A stretch of DNA of 24,548 nt, taken from assembly GCA_014896635.1 (NCBI GenBank), contig JADBKA010000054.1, forward strand, positions 1 to 24,548, in the 5' to 3' direction. Both the position numbers and the translations under genes were made by a program. The notes beneath the pieces are model-generated. The model was given only the letters and a program-made list of their open reading frames with translations, ran no database searches and was not told the DNA's origin. Source of the DNA: Ktedonobacteraceae bacterium. GTDB taxonomy: Bacteria; Chloroflexota; Ktedonobacteria; Ktedonobacterales; Ktedonobacteraceae. Shown piece after piece: positions 4,558 to 21,287 of the stretch; positions within the stretch are counted from its first letter, which is position 1, and every line of letters starts with the position of its first letter.

Positions 4558-6699
4558 ATGCCAGAAGAAAAAAAACAGGAACTCATCCACCTCACCATCG
4601 ACGGCACCCCCGTCGAAGTTCCACCGGGAACGCTAGTGTGGGCGGCAGCGCAAAAAGCCGGCATCGAAATCCCTATCTACTGCTACCATCCCAAGATGCC
4701 ACCACTTGGCGCCTGCCGCATGTGCTTTGTAGAAATCGAAAAGATGCCCAAGCCACCGCAGACGGCCTGTACCACGCCCGTTAGCGAAGGCATGGTTGTC
4801 CATACCAACACTGAGATGGTGCTCAAGGCCCGGCGCGGCACGCTGGAGTTCTTGCTCATCAACCACCCGCTGGATTGTCCTATCTGTGACAAGGGAGGTG
4901 AGTGCGATCTACAAGACTTCACACTCCGTCACGGACCGGGCGCTACGCGCTTCGATCTGAACAAGCGCCACTTCCGCAAACCCATCCCGGTGAGCGAAGA
5001 CGTTTTCCTGGACCGCGAGCGCTGCATTCTCTGCCAGCGCTGCACGCGCTTCAGTTCCGAGATCTCGATGGATAACGGTCTCGTCATGATCTCACGCGGC
5101 TATCGCATGGAAGTCGGCACGGCGCCTGATCACGCCTTCGACTCCATTTTCTCCGGCAATACCGTCGAAATCTGCCCGGTCGGCGCGCTCACTTCGTCGA
5201 AATATCGCTTCAAAGCGCGGCCCTGGGAAATCAGAAAAACGTCCAGCGTCTGCAATAATTGCAGTGTTGGCTGCAACGTACGCATTGATGCCCGCGTTGA
5301 TCGCATCATGCGCCTCATGTCGCGCACCAACGACGAGATAGACGACGGCTGGCTGTGCAACCGGGGCCGCTGGAACTTTGATTTTGTCAACGATCCACAG
5401 CGCCTGCGTACGCCACTCATTCGTCGCAACGGCAGCCTGGCCCCGGCTACCTGGGATGAGGCGTACGCCTATATTGCTCAGCGCCTCAAAGACATCATCG
5501 CCCGTCACGGCGCACAGTCGGTCGGCGGCATCGGCTCAACACGTACCACCAACGAAGAGAACTACCTCTTCCAGAAACTGCTGCGCCAGGTCATCGGCAC
5601 GCCCAACGTGGACCACCATCATGGCAAATTCGCCGGGCCACGCGACCGCCTCACCGGCAAACCCTGGATGATGACCGGCAGCATCGCCGAGCTGGAAAAA
5701 GCCTCACATATCGTCCTGATCGCTGCCGATCCATACCAGTATCAACCCGTTCTCAACCTGCGCATCAAGAAAGCCTTGCGCGCCGGAGCAAAAATTTACA
5801 TCGTCAATGCCGGCCCGACCGAACTTGACGGCTTTGCGACAATGCGCATCGCTATTCCTGCAAATAGCGCGGGGGCTGCCGCTCACGTGTTGCTCAGAGC
5901 CTGCCTGAGCAACAAAAACATCAAGGCCAGCAAAGAGATCGCCGCGCAGGCCGAAAAAGGAGAAGCCTTCTCTGCCTTCGATCCCGCCACTGTTGAGCAG
6001 CTGCGACTGCTGGCCGAAGAAATCGCCAGTGCAAAGAGCACGACAATGCTCTACGATGAAATGGCAACGCTCGATCCCGGCTGTGAGGATCTGGCTGCTG
6101 ACCTGCAAGCTCTCGCCGTCATTACCAATCAGATTGGACGTCCCGGCGCCGGCGTTGGTCCACTTTTCAGAGACGCGAATTCCCTGGGGGCGCGTGATAT
6201 GGGCTTGCTCCCCGACTCGCTGCCCGGCTATCAAGTGGCGACTGAGCAAGGTATGTCCTACGATGAGATGCTCAGCAGCCCGCAGATCAAGGCGCTCTAC
6301 GTCATGGGCGCGAATCCGGCGCGCCATCTGTCCGAATCTGAACTGCCCTCGACGCTGGAGTTCATCGTCGTGCAGGACATTCTGCTGACCGAGACCGCGC
6401 GTCAGGCCGATGTAGTGCTGCCCGCTGTGACGTTCGCTGAGAAAAACGGCACGATGACCAATCTCGATCACCATGTCCAGGTCATTCGCCCGGCCCTGCG
6501 GCCACTCCCCGGCGCCAGAGCCGACTGGGAAATACTCATCGACGTGGCACACCATCTCGGCAAAGATTGGGACTACAGCGAACCAGAAGACGTCTTCCAC
6601 GAAATTACTGCCAGCAATCCGCTCTACAGCGGCCTCACTCTGGAGAGCCTGGGGTTGCAGGGGATGCGTGCACAGGAACAGGAGGTGGCCCATGCTTGA
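4558..6699 (+). CDS. nuoG: NADH-quinone oxidoreductase subunit G
   Basis: This 75-kDa-type subunit of 713 residues carries the chain of Fe-S clusters between NuoF and NuoI. The [2Fe-2S] N1b ligands are Cys42, Cys53, Cys56 and Cys71. The N4-type His/Cys motif is in the HPLDCPICDKGGECDLQDF segment, and the N5-type ligands are in CILCQRC with the later EICPVGA. A further CNNCSVGC plus WLCNRGRW supplies ligands for the extra cluster N7 of the molybdopterin-oxidoreductase-like domain, which only some bacteria keep. The rest (about 240-700) is that domain without a pterin site. The ribosome-binding site before ATG 4558 is weak. The gene overlaps nuoH by 8 bp. Confidence 0.96.
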   Translation: MPEEKKQELIHLTIDGTPVEVPPGTLVWAAAQKAGIEIPIYCYHPKMPPLGACRMCFVEIEKMPKPPQTACTTPVSEGMVVHTNTEMVLKARRGTLEFLLINHPLDCPICDKGGECDLQDFTLRHGPGATRFDLNKRHFRKPIPVSEDVFLDRERCILCQRCTRFSSEISMDNGLVMISRGYRMEVGTAPDHAFDSIFSGNTVEICPVGALTSSKYRFKARPWEIRKTSSVCNNCSVGCNVRIDARVDRIMRLMSRTNDEIDDGWLCNRGRWNFDFVNDPQRLRTPLIRRNGSLAPATWDEAYAYIAQRLKDIIARHGAQSVGGIGSTRTTNEENYLFQKLLRQVIGTPNVDHHHGKFAGPRDRLTGKPWMMTGSIAELEKASHIVLIAADPYQYQPVLNLRIKKALRAGAKIYIVNAGPTELDGFATMRIAIPANSAGAAAHVLLRACLSNKNIKASKEIAAQAEKGEAFSAFDPATVEQLRLLAEEIASAKSTTMLYDEMATLDPGCEDLAADLQALAVITNQIGRPGAGVGPLFRDANSLGARDMGLLPDSLPGYQVATEQGMSYDEMLSSPQIKALYVMGANPARHLSESELPSTLEFIVVQDILLTETARQADVVLPAVTFAEKNGTMTNLDHHVQVIRPALRPLPGARADWEILIDVAHHLGKDWDYSEPEDVFHEITASNPLYSGLTLESLGLQGMRAQEQEVAHA

Positions 6700-7954
6700 C
6701 TTTCTGATGAATCCCATTGTTGCTGCCGTCATTAAAAGCATCATTATCATCTTCGTCCTGCTGACAGCCTTTGCCTACATGACGCTGATCGAGCGCCGCG
6801 TGGTTGCGAAGATTCAGGGACGCCTGGGACCGAATCGCGCCGGACCATTCGGCGTGTTCCAGCCGGTGGCCGATGCGATCAAGATGGCCTTTAAAGAGCA
6901 GATTATACCGGCACAGGCGAAAAAGCTCATCTACCTGATCGCACCGGTCATCTCGGTGGTTGTGGCGCTCAGCGCCTTCGCCGTGATCCCATTTGCCGCC
7001 GTTGACGCGAAGAATCCCGGCGTCTGGGCGCCTGTCATCGGCGATATCAACGTCGGCCTGCTCTGGATACTCTCGATCTCGTCACTGGCCGTCTATGGTA
7101 TCGTGCTCGGTGGCTGGTCTTCTGGCAACCGCTACTCGCTGCTCGGCTCGCTGCGCAGTGCCGCTCAGATGGTCTCCTACGAAACGAGCCTGGGTCTGGC
7201 ACTCAGCGGCGTGTTGATGTGGGCTGGTACGCTCAGCGTAGTCGGCATCGTCCACGCTCAGATCAACCAGGGCATTCCGTTTATCCTGGCACAACCGCTT
7301 GGCTTCTTCCTTTATCTTATCGCGGGCGTGGCCGAAGTCAATCGCGCGCCGTTCGACTTGCCGGAAGCGGAGCAGGAACTGACCGCCGGCTACCTGACAG
7401 AGTACAGCGGTCTGCGCTGGAGCCTCTACCAGATGTCCGAATACATCAACATGATCACAGTCAGCTCTGTCGCCACCACGCTCTTTCTGGGCGGCTGGAC
7501 CTTCTTCGGTCTGGAGCGCATCCCGCTGCTTGGTCTTGTCTTCTTTGTGCTCAAGGTCGCACTCTTCCTCTTCATGTTCATCTGGCTGCGTGCGACCCTG
7601 CCGCGCATCCGTTACGACCGCCTGATGCGCCTCGGCTGGCAGACGCTACTGCCGCTAGCCGCACTCAACGCCGTTATCGCCGCCGTCTGCGTTGCATTTA
7701 GCCTGCCCTGGTGGGTAAACTTTATCGCCGGCCTGATCGTTATCGCTGCGGTGCTGCTCTTCTTGCGGCGCAAGAGTGAGGTGGAGCATACGCGCTTTGT
7801 GGAGAAGGTCGGCGCTGGCCCGGTACTGCTGCCGGGAACGGTGCGCCTGGCGAAATTCGAGCGTGCTGCTGAGGCCGCCGCTACCGCGTCGGAACCGGCA
7901 GCTCAAGCACAGGCGCAAGTGCAGGGACAGAAGACAAAGGCCGTGCAGGTGTAG
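6692..7954 (+). CDS. nuoH: NADH-quinone oxidoreductase subunit H (membrane)
   Basis: This membrane subunit joins the peripheral arm to the proton-pumping arm and lines the quinone channel. The start ATG 6692 lies inside the end of nuoG, with GGAGG (6681-6685) six bases upstream; the frame is open further 5' but only as a shadow of nuoG. The protein has 420 residues. Conserved segments are GRLGPNRAGPFG, QPVADAIKM, the acidic loop NRAPFDLPEAEQEL with GYLTEYSG, and WLRATLPRIRYDRLM. Typical NuoH has about 330-350 residues; the excess is mostly a C-terminal tail rich in Ala and Gln. A toxin-antitoxin pair separates it from nuoI. Confidence 0.96.
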   Translation: MLDFLMNPIVAAVIKSIIIIFVLLTAFAYMTLIERRVVAKIQGRLGPNRAGPFGVFQPVADAIKMAFKEQIIPAQAKKLIYLIAPVISVVVALSAFAVIPFAAVDAKNPGVWAPVIGDINVGLLWILSISSLAVYGIVLGGWSSGNRYSLLGSLRSAAQMVSYETSLGLALSGVLMWAGTLSVVGIVHAQINQGIPFILAQPLGFFLYLIAGVAEVNRAPFDLPEAEQELTAGYLTEYSGLRWSLYQMSEYINMITVSSVATTLFLGGWTFFGLERIPLLGLVFFVLKVALFLFMFIWLRATLPRIRYDRLMRLGWQTLLPLAALNAVIAAVCVAFSLPWWVNFIAGLIVIAAVLLFLRRKSEVEHTRFVEKVGAGPVLLPGTVRLAKFERAAEAAATASEPAAQAQAQVQGQKTKAVQV

Positions 7955-7994: not shown

Positions 7995-8086
7995 TCCCTT
8001 TCCCTGCTGCCCGGCAGGAGCGGATGGAGAAAGCGCAGAAGCCCTGCAATTCGCGCAATAATCAGATAGTGGGTGTAGCATGACTC

Positions 8087-8095
8087 TGGTATGAT
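8087..8095 (+). promoter_or_regulatory. Possible extended -10 promoter of the toxin-antitoxin pair
   Basis: TGGTATGAT matches the extended -10 pattern TGnTATAAT at all but one position. No good -35 box lies upstream. It is 47 bp before the antitoxin ATG, a plausible place for a private promoter of the inserted pair. Confidence 0.3.
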
Positions 8096-8142
8096 TGTGG
8101 TGAGCGAGTCAAGCGCAAGCCGGTAAATTCGAGGAGAAAGTT

Positions 8143-8370
8143 ATGTCAACCTACACATACCGCCAGATACTGGACCAGGCAGAGCAGTTGACTGAAGATG
8201 AGCAGTTGCAACTGATAGAGGATTTGATAGCAAGATTGCGTAAGAAGAGTCAAATCAAAGCAGTGCCTCGCCATAATATCATGGAACTGAAAGGACTGGG
8301 TAAGGAACTCTGGAGATCAATTGACGTGGACAGGTACATTGCCGAGGAGAGAGCCTCATGGGATGGGTAG
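8143..8370 (+). CDS. Putative antitoxin of a PIN-domain toxin
   Basis: This 75-residue protein is encoded immediately upstream of a PIN-domain protein and overlaps it by 13 bp, the usual antitoxin position. ATG 8143 follows GAGGAGAAAG. Residues 1-35 look like a mostly helical segment (QILDQAEQLTEDEQLQLIED). The C-terminal part (HNIMELKGLGKELW, then VDRYIAEERASWDG) resembles the toxin-neutralising tail of short antitoxins found beside PIN toxins. I cannot assign a DNA-binding fold with confidence. Base composition is visibly more AT-rich than the flanking nuo genes, which suggests acquisition. The antitoxin role is inferred from size and position. Confidence 0.7.
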   Translation: MSTYTYRQILDQAEQLTEDEQLQLIEDLIARLRKKSQIKAVPRHNIMELKGLGKELWRSIDVDRYIAEERASWDG

Positions 8371-8804
8371 ATCCGCTAAAGGGATACGTAGTGGGATTGG
8401 ATACTGCTCCTCTAATTTATTTCATCGAGGAGCATCCGGTATATGCAGATGTGGTTGATCCTTTCTTCGAGGCTGTAGGGAGAGGAGAGATACAAGTTGT
8501 TACTTCTGTTATAACGTTTCTCGAAGTGCTAGTTCTGCCCATAAGAAGTGGGAATGTTGAATTAGCTCGCAAGTATCAGGATATTCTGTTTAACACAACC
8601 GGCCTGAATACTGTTGCTCTTTCTCCACATGTTGCTGAGGAAGCTGCGCGATTACGTGCGTTTCATAGAATTGCTACTCCTGACGCGATTCAGGTAGCTA
8701 CAGCTATTGCTGTATCTGCATCATACTTTCTCACTAATGATTTACATTTGCCGCTGCTGTCTGGCTTGCGAGTGCTTAGAGTAGATGAATTGAGAACGAG
8801 TTAA
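8358..8804 (+). CDS. PIN-domain ribonuclease toxin, VapC-like
   Basis: This 148-residue protein has the PIN fold of Mg2+-dependent endoribonuclease toxins, which typically cut tRNA or rRNA. The acidic catalytic set looks complete: Asp15 (GLDTAPLIYFIE), Glu56 (ITFLEVL), Asp109 (TPDAIQVATA) and Asp128 (TNDLHL). The start ATG 8358 has GAGGAGAG eight bases upstream and lies within the antitoxin gene. The sequence uses many A/T-ending and rare-type codons (ATA, AGA, TTA) unlike the nuo genes around it. It stands between nuoH and nuoI in the same orientation, so nuo read-through would also transcribe it. PIN family is sure; toxin activity is inferred. Confidence 0.88.
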   Translation: MGWVDPLKGYVVGLDTAPLIYFIEEHPVYADVVDPFFEAVGRGEIQVVTSVITFLEVLVLPIRSGNVELARKYQDILFNTTGLNTVALSPHVAEEAARLRAFHRIATPDAIQVATAIAVSASYFLTNDLHLPLLSGLRVLRVDELRTS

Positions 8805-8839
8805 CGATTTGTCACTTCTCTCAATTTAAGGAGTCTGTA

Positions 8840-9463
8840 ATGTCTTTTGATATCATCAAGGGTCTGGCAACGACCCTGAAGAATATGGGAAGGAAGCCGA
8901 CTACCGTCTCCTACCCGGAAGAGGAGCGTCAGTTGCCGCCGCGTTTTCGTGGTCGGCATGTGCTGCACCGCTACGATAACGGGCTGGAACGCTGTGTCGG
9001 CTGTTACCTCTGCGCCGGAGCGTGTCCGGCTGACGCCATCTATATTGAGGCCGAGGAGAACACCGACGAGAATCGTGTCTCGCCGGGCGAGCGATATGCC
9101 AGAGTGTTTGACATAAATATGCTGCGCTGTATCTTCTGCGGCTATTGCCAGGCGGCATGTCCTACCGGCGCGATCACACTGGAGAAGGTGTATAAACTGG
9201 CCTCGTACTATCCAGAGGATATGGTTTACCATAAAGAGCAACTGCTTGAGCCGAAAGGGCAGGCGACTGTCGGTTCAAACGAAGTCTGGACCGACCCGGC
9301 ACCAGAACCGGAAGAGGCGCCGCAGCCTGTGCCACAGAAGACTGGCGTCTTCGATGGCTCTCAGGCCAATGCTGCCGCCGTCGGTCTCGGCAACCTGCGA
9401 ACTGAGAGTGCAGTGCTCTTTACTGACGAGGAGCAAGACGAAGACAGAAGGAAACTGCGATGA
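8840..9463 (+). CDS. nuoI: NADH-quinone oxidoreductase subunit I (two 4Fe-4S)
   Basis: This ferredoxin-like 23-kDa-type subunit carries clusters N6a and N6b between NuoG and NuoB. It has two classical motifs: Cys52, 55, 58 (CVGCYLC) with Cys62 (ACPAD), and Cys97, 100, 103 (CIFCGYC) with Cys107 (ACPTG). ATG 8840 has AAGGAG (8828-8833) six bases upstream. Of 207 residues, about the last 70 form an extension rich in Pro, Glu and Gln, ending in the charged stretch DEEQDEDRRKLR; the family core ends near residue 137. The stop overlaps the nuoJ start (ATGA). Its own strong ribosome-binding site allows translation after the inserted toxin gene. Confidence 0.96.
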   Translation: MSFDIIKGLATTLKNMGRKPTTVSYPEEERQLPPRFRGRHVLHRYDNGLERCVGCYLCAGACPADAIYIEAEENTDENRVSPGERYARVFDINMLRCIFCGYCQAACPTGAITLEKVYKLASYYPEDMVYHKEQLLEPKGQATVGSNEVWTDPAPEPEEAPQPVPQKTGVFDGSQANAAAVGLGNLRTESAVLFTDEEQDEDRRKLR

Positions 9464-20124: not shown

Positions 20125-20610
20125 ATGCCGTCACAAATCTGCATCAAAACCGACAAATCCTTACAGCAACTAGCTGCTGAGATTCAGCAACTTCTTACTC
20201 TCCCCTCCGTCACCGAAAACTCTTTCGCTGGCCAGCCTTATTACCAGTTTGAAATGTTTGGCATACTGGCGCTCATTCATCGAGCGGAAGAAGAGGGGCT
20301 AGATCCTGAGGTTATGGACTATCCCTACTGCCTGGATCTGCAAATGACGTTCACCGAGCACGAACTTGACACCGATGCCCTGGAATACCAGCTCCAGCCT
20401 TATTACGCCCAGTTACTCGCCTTTCACCTCGGCGTGGAGACTGCCTATCATGAAAAGCAAAAGATTGGCTCACGCTGGCGTATTCGTTATCGCTTCTGCC
20501 GCAAAAATCCTGTCTGGAATGAAGCGATTCTCTATGGAGAAGAGGGCTGGCAGCCCGCCGTGCTCTCCGATATGACTTCAGAATGGCGCTATAAACAGCC
20601 GGTTATCTGA
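20125..20610 (+). CDS. Unassigned protein, 161 residues
   Basis: I do not recognise this protein. It is soluble, acidic and rich in Tyr and Leu, with no signal peptide, membrane helix or metal motif. It starts with a helical segment (SLQQLAAEIQQLLTL), then FEMFGILALIHRAEEEGLDPE and aromatic stretches (MDYPYCLDLQ, PYYAQLLAFHLG), and ends with a Trp/Arg-rich region. A strong promoter precedes it and AAGGAGCC (20111-20118) precedes ATG 20125. Base composition is close to that of its neighbours. It stands alone with no operon partner, so context does not indicate a role. Confidence 0.7.
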   Translation: MPSQICIKTDKSLQQLAAEIQQLLTLPSVTENSFAGQPYYQFEMFGILALIHRAEEEGLDPEVMDYPYCLDLQMTFTEHELDTDALEYQLQPYYAQLLAFHLGVETAYHEKQKIGSRWRIRYRFCRKNPVWNEAILYGEEGWQPAVLSDMTSEWRYKQPVI

Positions 20611-20657
20611 AAAGTAGGCGATAGCTCTTCCCTCTTTTTCTCTTCCTTTTTGATTAT

Positions 20658-20699
20658 CCTCCTGGCGGGGGCCTCAGGGGTTCCCTCACCACTCTTTTT
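20658..20699. repeat. Interspersed GC-rich palindromic repeat, copy D (5'-truncated)
   Basis: CTCCTGGCGGGGG, then CAGGGGTTCCC, then ACTCTTTTT follows the second half of copy B in the same order and orientation. The first palindrome is missing. It stands 47 bp after the stop of the 20125 gene, again directly downstream of a coding region. Confidence 0.5.
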
Positions 20700-20925
20700 C
20701 TCCATTTTAATGAGAGGAACAAAAACCGTCTAAAGAAGGGGGGTAAGAAGAAGATTCGCGCGCTAGCAAGCGATCAGGCACATGTTACACAGGAAGAAAA
20801 ACATTTGTCTGCGGGGAAACATACACATTTATCCCAATATAAAAATCAGGTGAAAAAATTTGTTTAGTTAAAAAAAAGTTGGTGAAACACTGGACAGAGG
20901 CATATGATATCATGCATACTAGTAA

Positions 20926-20961
20926 TGTGTATTGTTACCGATAGTTTACAAACGATACACA
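20926..20961. promoter_or_regulatory. 11-bp inverted repeat upstream of the 21054 ORF
   Basis: TGTGTATTGTT (20926-20936) and AACGATACACA (20951-20961) match as inverted repeats with one mismatch and a 14-base spacer. The spacing of the half-sites suits a dimeric DNA-binding protein. No strong promoter boxes overlap it. Confidence 0.35.
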
Positions 20962-21022
20962 ATGTATTTACAACATGGCTATTCTGTAGATCAAAGAGCC
21001 TGATTATAGCCCACAGTTCTTG

Positions 21023-21031
21023 TGGTATTAT
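21023..21031 (+). promoter_or_regulatory. Possible extended -10 promoter of the 21054 ORF
   Basis: TGGTATTAT matches the extended -10 pattern; the -35 region is poor. A small CCACA/TGTGG hairpin (21011-21025) overlaps it. If used, the transcript would start about 17 bases before the ATG. Confidence 0.35.
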
Positions 21032-21053
21032 TGCCAGGAAAGGAAGTGCACAC

Positions 21054-21287
21054 ATGCTAGGAGCACAGGAACAGCGAAGCGAGGTGGCGCGTCTGCTTGC
21101 GCGAATCAGTGCCGAGTATGAAGCGGCTCAGCGTGGGCTGACGGGTCTGGCGTATGGCGTCTCTCAGCATGAATTTATCACCGCGCGTATGGAGAATATG
21201 GGGCGACTTCATAGCCAGTTGCAATCGCTGGTAGGGGATGCAGCAATCGCCATGATCGCAGACCGGTTGAGCGACACCGAGCGATGA
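21054..21287 (+). CDS. Small unassigned helical protein, 77 residues
   Basis: This protein begins MLGAQEQRSEVARLLARIS and appears almost wholly helical, with a charged amphipathic pattern (EVARLLARISAEYEAAQRGL, then ITARMENMGRLHSQLQSL). It has no Cys, membrane helix or known motif, and I do not recognise the family. ATG 21054 follows AGGAAAGGAAG. The frame is open further upstream, but that part lies in AT-rich non-coding sequence. A clear terminator follows 30 bases after the stop, so it is an independent short transcript. Confidence 0.6.
   Translation: MLGAQEQRSEVARLLARISAEYEAAQRGLTGLAYGVSQHEFITARMENMGRLHSQLQSLVGDAAIAMIADRLSDTER

Follow-up and report, generated by a model that had tools for sequence, protein, structure and literature searches.

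The window, i.e., the whole stretch of 24,548 nucleotides analysed here, contains a complex I operon on the + strand which, according to Pfam and NCBIfam matches, reads nuoB (partial)-C-D-E-F-G-H, then two small open reading frames (ORFs), then nuoI-J-K-L-M-N. The two ORFs overlap by 13 bases (Table 1). The original prediction of a toxin-antitoxin-like pair inside nuo, between nuoH and nuoI and on the same strand, agrees with the ORFs, the Pfam matches and the nuo flanks, and its description of the pair as low in GC is borne out as well (0.48 in the antitoxin and 0.44 in the toxin vs. 0.57 in nuoI). Read-through from nuo, which it also proposed, is possible, as a terminator scan found no terminator-like site between nuoH and nuoI of the window. 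The nearest relatives of the window's NuoI in named genomes are those of Ktedonobacteraceae and related Chloroflexota (best 85%).

Table 1. Features at the nuoH-nuoI junction of the window
Feature	Position	Strand	Evidence or remark
nuoH	6698..7954	+	Pfam NADHdh, E 1.1e-115; NCBIfam NuoH
Promoter-like block GGTGTAGCATGACTCTGGTATGAT	8072..8095	+	Extended -10 TGG TATGAT (TATGAT = 8090-8095); weak -35 hexamer
GAGGAG, likely ribosome-binding site of the antitoxin	8131..8136	+	Sequence reading
Antitoxin-like gene, 75 aa	8143..8370	+	PF09720 below cut-off; predicted helical N-terminus, conserved C-terminal stretch
PIN-domain toxin-like gene, 148 aa	8358..8804	+	PF01850, invariant acidic residues, predicted VapC fold
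Overlap of antitoxin end and toxin start	8358..8370	+	Sequence reading; GAGGAG at 8344-8349
AAGGAG, likely ribosome-binding site of nuoI, 3' of the cassette	8828..8833	+	Sequence reading
nuoI	8840..9463	+	NCBIfam NuoI (NF004537), E 1.3e-54

The start of nuoH is approximate: the mechanically called ORF begins at 6473, within nuoG, and the best NCBIfam NuoH matches begin at ORF residue 76 at the earliest. Rfam gave zero matches within the window, no clear pair of repeats (terminal inverted repeats or a target duplication) was found at the two cassette ends, and the search for relatives of the cassette on phages or viral contigs returned none; relatives on plasmids reach at most 44% identity, in four cyanobacterial records. 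Elsewhere in the window (20125-21284), a low-GC stretch upstream of recG holds two ORFs, of 161 and 127 aa, for which neither Pfam nor PADLOC gave a match.

The two proteins and the promoter-like block

The 148-aa ORF contains a PIN domain (PF01850; E 5.6e-12, 46.8 bits vs. a cut-off of 23.6), and its residues D15, E56, D109 and D128, which we take to be the catalytic acidic set of PIN toxins, are invariant in all 32 aligned toxin homologues. The predicted model (pLDDT 94.3) is matched by Foldseek at E < 1e-4 to the VapC structures 3zvk, 5ecw, 7by3 and others, the best match being 3zvk (TM 0.69), the VapC of Rickettsia felis VapBC2. Domain and modelled fold suggest that the protein is likely a VapC-like PIN-domain RNase. 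The best Pfam match of the 75-aa ORF is PF09720 (putative addiction module) with 18.6 bits, below the gathering cut-off of 23.3, and this family is matched at E <= 0.1 in nine of 27 aligned antitoxin homologues. Two helices are predicted at its N-terminus, and the C-terminal stretch is conserved with the consensus E-x-K-GLGKE-x-W-x-x-ID-x-x-x-Y-x-x-x-ER-x-SW. The structural model is poor (pLDDT 72; a single fold match with E 9.7), and no recognised DNA-binding domain (AbrB, RHH, Phd, etc.) scored above curated cut-offs, the fold search having used this low-confidence model. For the first antitoxin of genomes G007 and G008, dN is 0.059 and dS 0.328, which indicates that this gene is under purifying selection. 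We infer that the two proteins form a toxin-antitoxin pair. The overlap of their genes, identical in length (13 bases) in G015, G007 and G042, likely couples the translation of toxin to that of antitoxin.

A common block lies directly 3' of nuoH in G015, G003 and G042, with a near-consensus -35, a 17-base spacer that is itself similar, and an extended -10; in G039, it is preceded by an antitoxin relic and followed by the intact antitoxin. With up to three mismatches, the pattern TGACANGYGTAGGNGACTYTGNTATGAT has five matches in the 47 Ktedonobacterales genomes compared, all in the nuoH-nuoI junction (reversed control: 0), namely in these four antitoxin carriers and in G004, which has no antitoxin. 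The block of the window, which starts 117 bp 3' of the nuoH stop, has diverged; it aligns to those of the four carriers with a summed score reached by none of 2000 dinucleotide shuffles and a best single score reached by one of 2000. It was listed neither by a generic promoter scan nor by the 28-base pattern at up to three mismatches, owing to its weak -35 and an inserted base. A gapped match follows a decayed nuoH tail in G007 (0 of 500 plain shuffles), and G008 has kept the right half of the block, CTCTGGTATGATGGTGAG, 2203 bases upstream having been searched (score reached by 3 of 500 plain shuffles). Among 22 junctions compared, the block is present in G003 and G004 only; in cassette-free junctions, the nuoH-nuoI gap measures 7 to 269 bp. 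The block is likely the cassette's own promoter and perhaps also an operator bound by the antitoxin. That it might be a native nuoI promoter older than the cassette is disfavoured, as each of the five matches is accompanied at its junction by an antitoxin or, in the case of G004, by a toxin scar.

The nuoH-nuoI junction in other Ktedonobacterales

nuoI was found in 43 of the 47 genomes, and the nuoH-nuoI junction was readable in 41; these include neither G009, whose junction is cut off by the end of a contig, nor G008, in which nuoI is not preceded by nuoH. Five of the readable junctions contain the antitoxin: one has the antitoxin alone, three a toxin with one or two antitoxins, and one a toxin with four. 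The antitoxin query matched eight of the 47 genomes at E <= 1e-3; in six of them the antitoxin lies directly before nuoI, and in G023 and G032 it lies elsewhere. The six slots hold an antitoxin only (G003), antitoxin and toxin (G042), antitoxin, toxin and an extra antitoxin relic (G039), two antitoxins and a toxin (G015), four antitoxins and a toxin (G007), and two antitoxins with a deleted toxin (G008). The junction comparison that the original prediction had called for thus confirms that the slot recurs in relatives, its contents varying, even among sister species, from the pair to antitoxin only to neither. In G003, about 250 bp of sequence without assigned identity take the place of the toxin (L003:4747-5000). 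One nuoH-nuoI gap (L014:4824-5000) contains a palindromic repeat resembling a small non-autonomous element.

Toxin matches were obtained in 13 of the 47 genomes, five of them close (54-62% identity) and eight distant (31-39%). The close toxins occupy the nuo slot in four of five genomes, the fifth (G032) having it elsewhere, so that the situation named beforehand as counting against a link with nuo, the same pair at unrelated places in related genomes, mostly does not obtain. In the eight genomes with distant toxins, the stretches examined show none of the nuo genes from G to K, the five looked for. Among 400 Chloroflexota genomes, the toxin query matched ten at E <= 1e-25, including the four nuo carriers. 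All seven carriers, the window included, have cassette genes of lower GC (0.40-0.49) than nuoI (0.55-0.60). The claim that composition marks the pair as foreign therefore holds as to the low GC but is weaker than stated as a proof of import, since a family trait or repeated import fits as well as one recent import.

The genomes of three Ktedonobacter (G042, G003 and G005) allow the slot to be followed at close range. The flank before the slot is 92-99% identical in every full 100-bp block (nuoH of G042 vs. G003: 95-99% per 100 bp), the left breakpoint is the nuoH stop codon, and the slot holds the pair in G042, the antitoxin only in G003 and neither in G005. On the right side of G005, the 14 bases GAACGCGTCCTTAA are those that end the toxin gene of G042 and stand directly before the shared nuoI leader; they are likely a scar of cassette loss, although they may instead belong to an older flank in which the toxin gene of G042 terminates. 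Clearer than G005 is G004, where the promoter block runs, within the gap, straight into codons that spell LDELKTRQ-stop. Two database toxin homologues end in exactly these letters (LDELKTR occurs in 12 of 138 toxin sequences compared); by its sequence, this is a deletion scar of the toxin end. In G008, remnants of the toxin start and of about the last 15 codons are left, out of frame, and two antitoxins are kept. The antitoxins of G042 and G003 differ by a dS of 1.80 vs. 0.11 for nuoI, suggesting that the cassette was probably exchanged and did not age in place; alternatively, different ancestral copies may have been retained. The antitoxin copies of G007 are mosaic (copies 1 and 4 are 86.8% identical over 91 bp), as would be expected from tandem duplication and recombination.

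How often the slot was invaded was approached by means of trees. In the nuo tree, all nine carriers and scarred genomes (including the window, G004 and G005) fall within a clade of 21 readable rows, and parsimony fits six changes (Fitch) about as well as one gain and six losses. Carriers are clustered when the whole nuo tree is considered (shuffles as low: 47 of 2000), but inside the 21-row clade they are not (494 of 2000). The tree of located toxins unites G015 and G042 as sisters (98/91), in agreement with the nuo tree. With located toxins alone, a single nuo toxin clade is not rejected (p 0.26), yet it appears in 0% of the bootstrap trees; when 119 database homologues of unplaced genomic location were added, a nuo-only toxin clade was rejected (p-AU 1e-6), a result that is hard to read because some of these homologues may also lie in nuo. 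Many cassette-free junctions show no scar, and a single ancestral insertion is therefore only one possible history.

Relatives outside nuo and competing explanations

Relatives of the pair also occur in other gene neighbourhoods, among them those of other Chloroflexota (G315, L172, L181, L170 and L171). G315 (L109:3438-7221) has relatives of both antitoxin and PIN toxin between the genes for isocitrate dehydrogenase and malate dehydrogenase, followed by fumarase, and in G032 (L061:5033-9850) a close pair follows nadA at a distance of 138 bp. The latter run reads nadB-nadC-nadA, with a GC of 0.60-0.62 in the pair vs. 0.69 in the region. A further relative (L172) is flanked on both sides by iron-sulfur/flavin oxidoreductase genes read as hdrA-like; the names nadB, nadC and hdrA are our own reading of translations that matched no family so named. 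Other relatives are flanked by SRAP and MobA-like genes (L181), follow a gene for a class V aminotransferase after 14 bp (L170), overlap a dus gene (L171) or adjoin an exonuclease-type gene. In the best-scoring 30 loci (one class) of a longer match list, the upstream neighbour is co-directional in 19 of 26 readable cases and not so in seven, a count made on mechanical ORFs, two of them doubtful (L169, L175), and without a background control. Lodging in operons may thus be a habit of the family that is not special to respiration. A general preference for NAD(H)-related operons is suggested by some neighbours, but other relatives adjoin unrelated genes, and we treat it as a lead only.

The explanation that we consider fairly probable is that the pair is a VapBC-like, self-contained addiction cassette with its own promoter, carried as a passenger in a swap-prone nuoH-nuoI slot. 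The likely promoter at 8072-8095 would drive the antitoxin, the antitoxin would bind and block the PIN-domain RNase, and read-through from the nuo promoter might add to cassette expression, the operon offering a safe, transcribed site. Loss of the antitoxin would be penalised while the toxin remains, so that toxins would be deleted and antitoxins stay, and with a passenger in a host operon, sister species could lose the cassette with their nuo genes unharmed. The alternative that the toxin level is tied to respiration, as the original prediction had suggested, would make the pair a growth switch: nuo transcription would set the levels of antitoxin and toxin, falling respiratory expression would free the toxin and slow growth, and selection would keep the pair in nuo. 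The shared strand, the tight packing, the lack of a terminator-like site between nuoH and nuoI, the concentration of the order's close toxins in the nuo slot and the presence of some relatives in other energy-metabolism operons (G315, L172, G032) are all compatible with such a switch; the cassette, however, has its own conserved promoter-like block, sister species with near-identical nuo genes do without the toxin or the whole cassette, and other relatives stand beside unrelated genes, so that we regard the switch, which none of the findings calls for, as quite unlikely. Rather than regulating respiration, the cassette is probably a fast-changing passenger of an energy operon, and we infer that it persists mainly in this role.

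Tandem antitoxins (four in G007, two each in G008 and G015), the antitoxins without an intact toxin in G003 and G008, and the purifying selection on the antitoxin might instead point to a reservoir that neutralises incoming toxins, or to a pair that aborts phage infection. Both forms of this idea appear rather unlikely: no PADLOC model fits the window pair, G007 and G008 (draft MAGs) have no other toxin match at E <= 1e-3, and duplication alone can give tandem copies, in keeping with their similar leaders and mosaic sequences. A non-functional recent insertion, a chance arrangement or an error in the assembly of the MAG would accord with the low GC of the cassette, but the same genes occupy the same junction in independent genomes, such as NZ_BNJI01000001.1 (antitoxin, on a 6.7 Mb contig) and G042 (pair, on a 4.9 Mb contig), and the frames are open and the acidic residues invariant. 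Chance is ruled out because homologues occur in the same junction of other genomes, and for the same reason a recent, isolated insertion in the window was rejected; largely refuted by these comparative data, this group of explanations is highly improbable as a whole. G007 and G008 raise another question. In G008, nuoF, nuoG and nuoH span two contigs that share 80 identical bases, the end of nuoH is intact and is not followed by nuoI on its contig, and nuoI-nuoN lie on a separate contig headed by two antitoxins; in G007, a decayed nuoH tail is found in the stretch before the antitoxin array. Both are draft MAGs and may suffer from faulty binning or assembly, but they agree with each other. If the split is true, transcription of nuoI-N would have to start within or near the cassette, which could then serve half of complex I as a portable internal promoter: the antitoxin-controlled promoter would also transcribe and regulate nuoI-nuoN and let the operon break at the slot in the G007/G008 lineage, with the antitoxin array heading nuoI-N and the nuoH-containing front half elsewhere. 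We hold this extension to be unlikely. Two side observations concern the same genomes: in G008 (L066; L209/L210), the two antitoxins and a PhnD-like gene fragment precede nuoI-N, and in G007 (L007:460-1122), a 220-aa ORF with a weak coiled-coil match only separates the decayed nuoH tail from the antitoxin array.

Relation to known systems

Discussions of toxin-antitoxin evolution mostly concern plasmids and islands. In the present case, a single fixed junction of a core energy operon shows many stages side by side in related species, i.e., the pair, an antitoxin array, the antitoxin only, an internally deleted toxin, a scar, and none of these. This natural series lends itself to the question of whether toxin-antitoxin pairs of chromosomes are mere passengers or have been recruited, and to that of whether an ancient operon can come apart with the help of a promoter brought in by such a passenger.

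In Paracoccus and Rhodobacter, too, complex I operons contain additional genes, and the window resembles them in this respect; unlike them, the slot described here holds a swap-prone toxin-antitoxin-like cassette with a promoter-like block. The word "toxin" does not occur in PMC8115037 and PMC4859585, and a literature search restricted to open-licence papers, partly accessible, brought up no description of toxin-antitoxin genes within a nuo operon, which is weak evidence of novelty. The cassette is similar to VapBC in that a small upstream antitoxin-like gene overlaps a PIN-domain gene whose product has a predicted VapC fold and invariant acidic residues. It differs from VapBC in its antitoxin, whose N-terminus consists of two predicted helices and which, with its low-confidence model, matched no known antitoxin fold and reached no curated cut-off, and in its position within nuo, where it is preceded by its own conserved block. 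The Unstab_antitox family (PF09720) is the best Pfam match of this antitoxin, but at a score below the family's cut-off. The antitoxins without an intact toxin in G003 and G008 resemble the "orphan antitoxins" of bacterial genomes, a term used, for example, in PMC7192599, whereas the nuoH-nuoI slot differs from these in presenting pair, antitoxin only and neither at one junction of closely related species.
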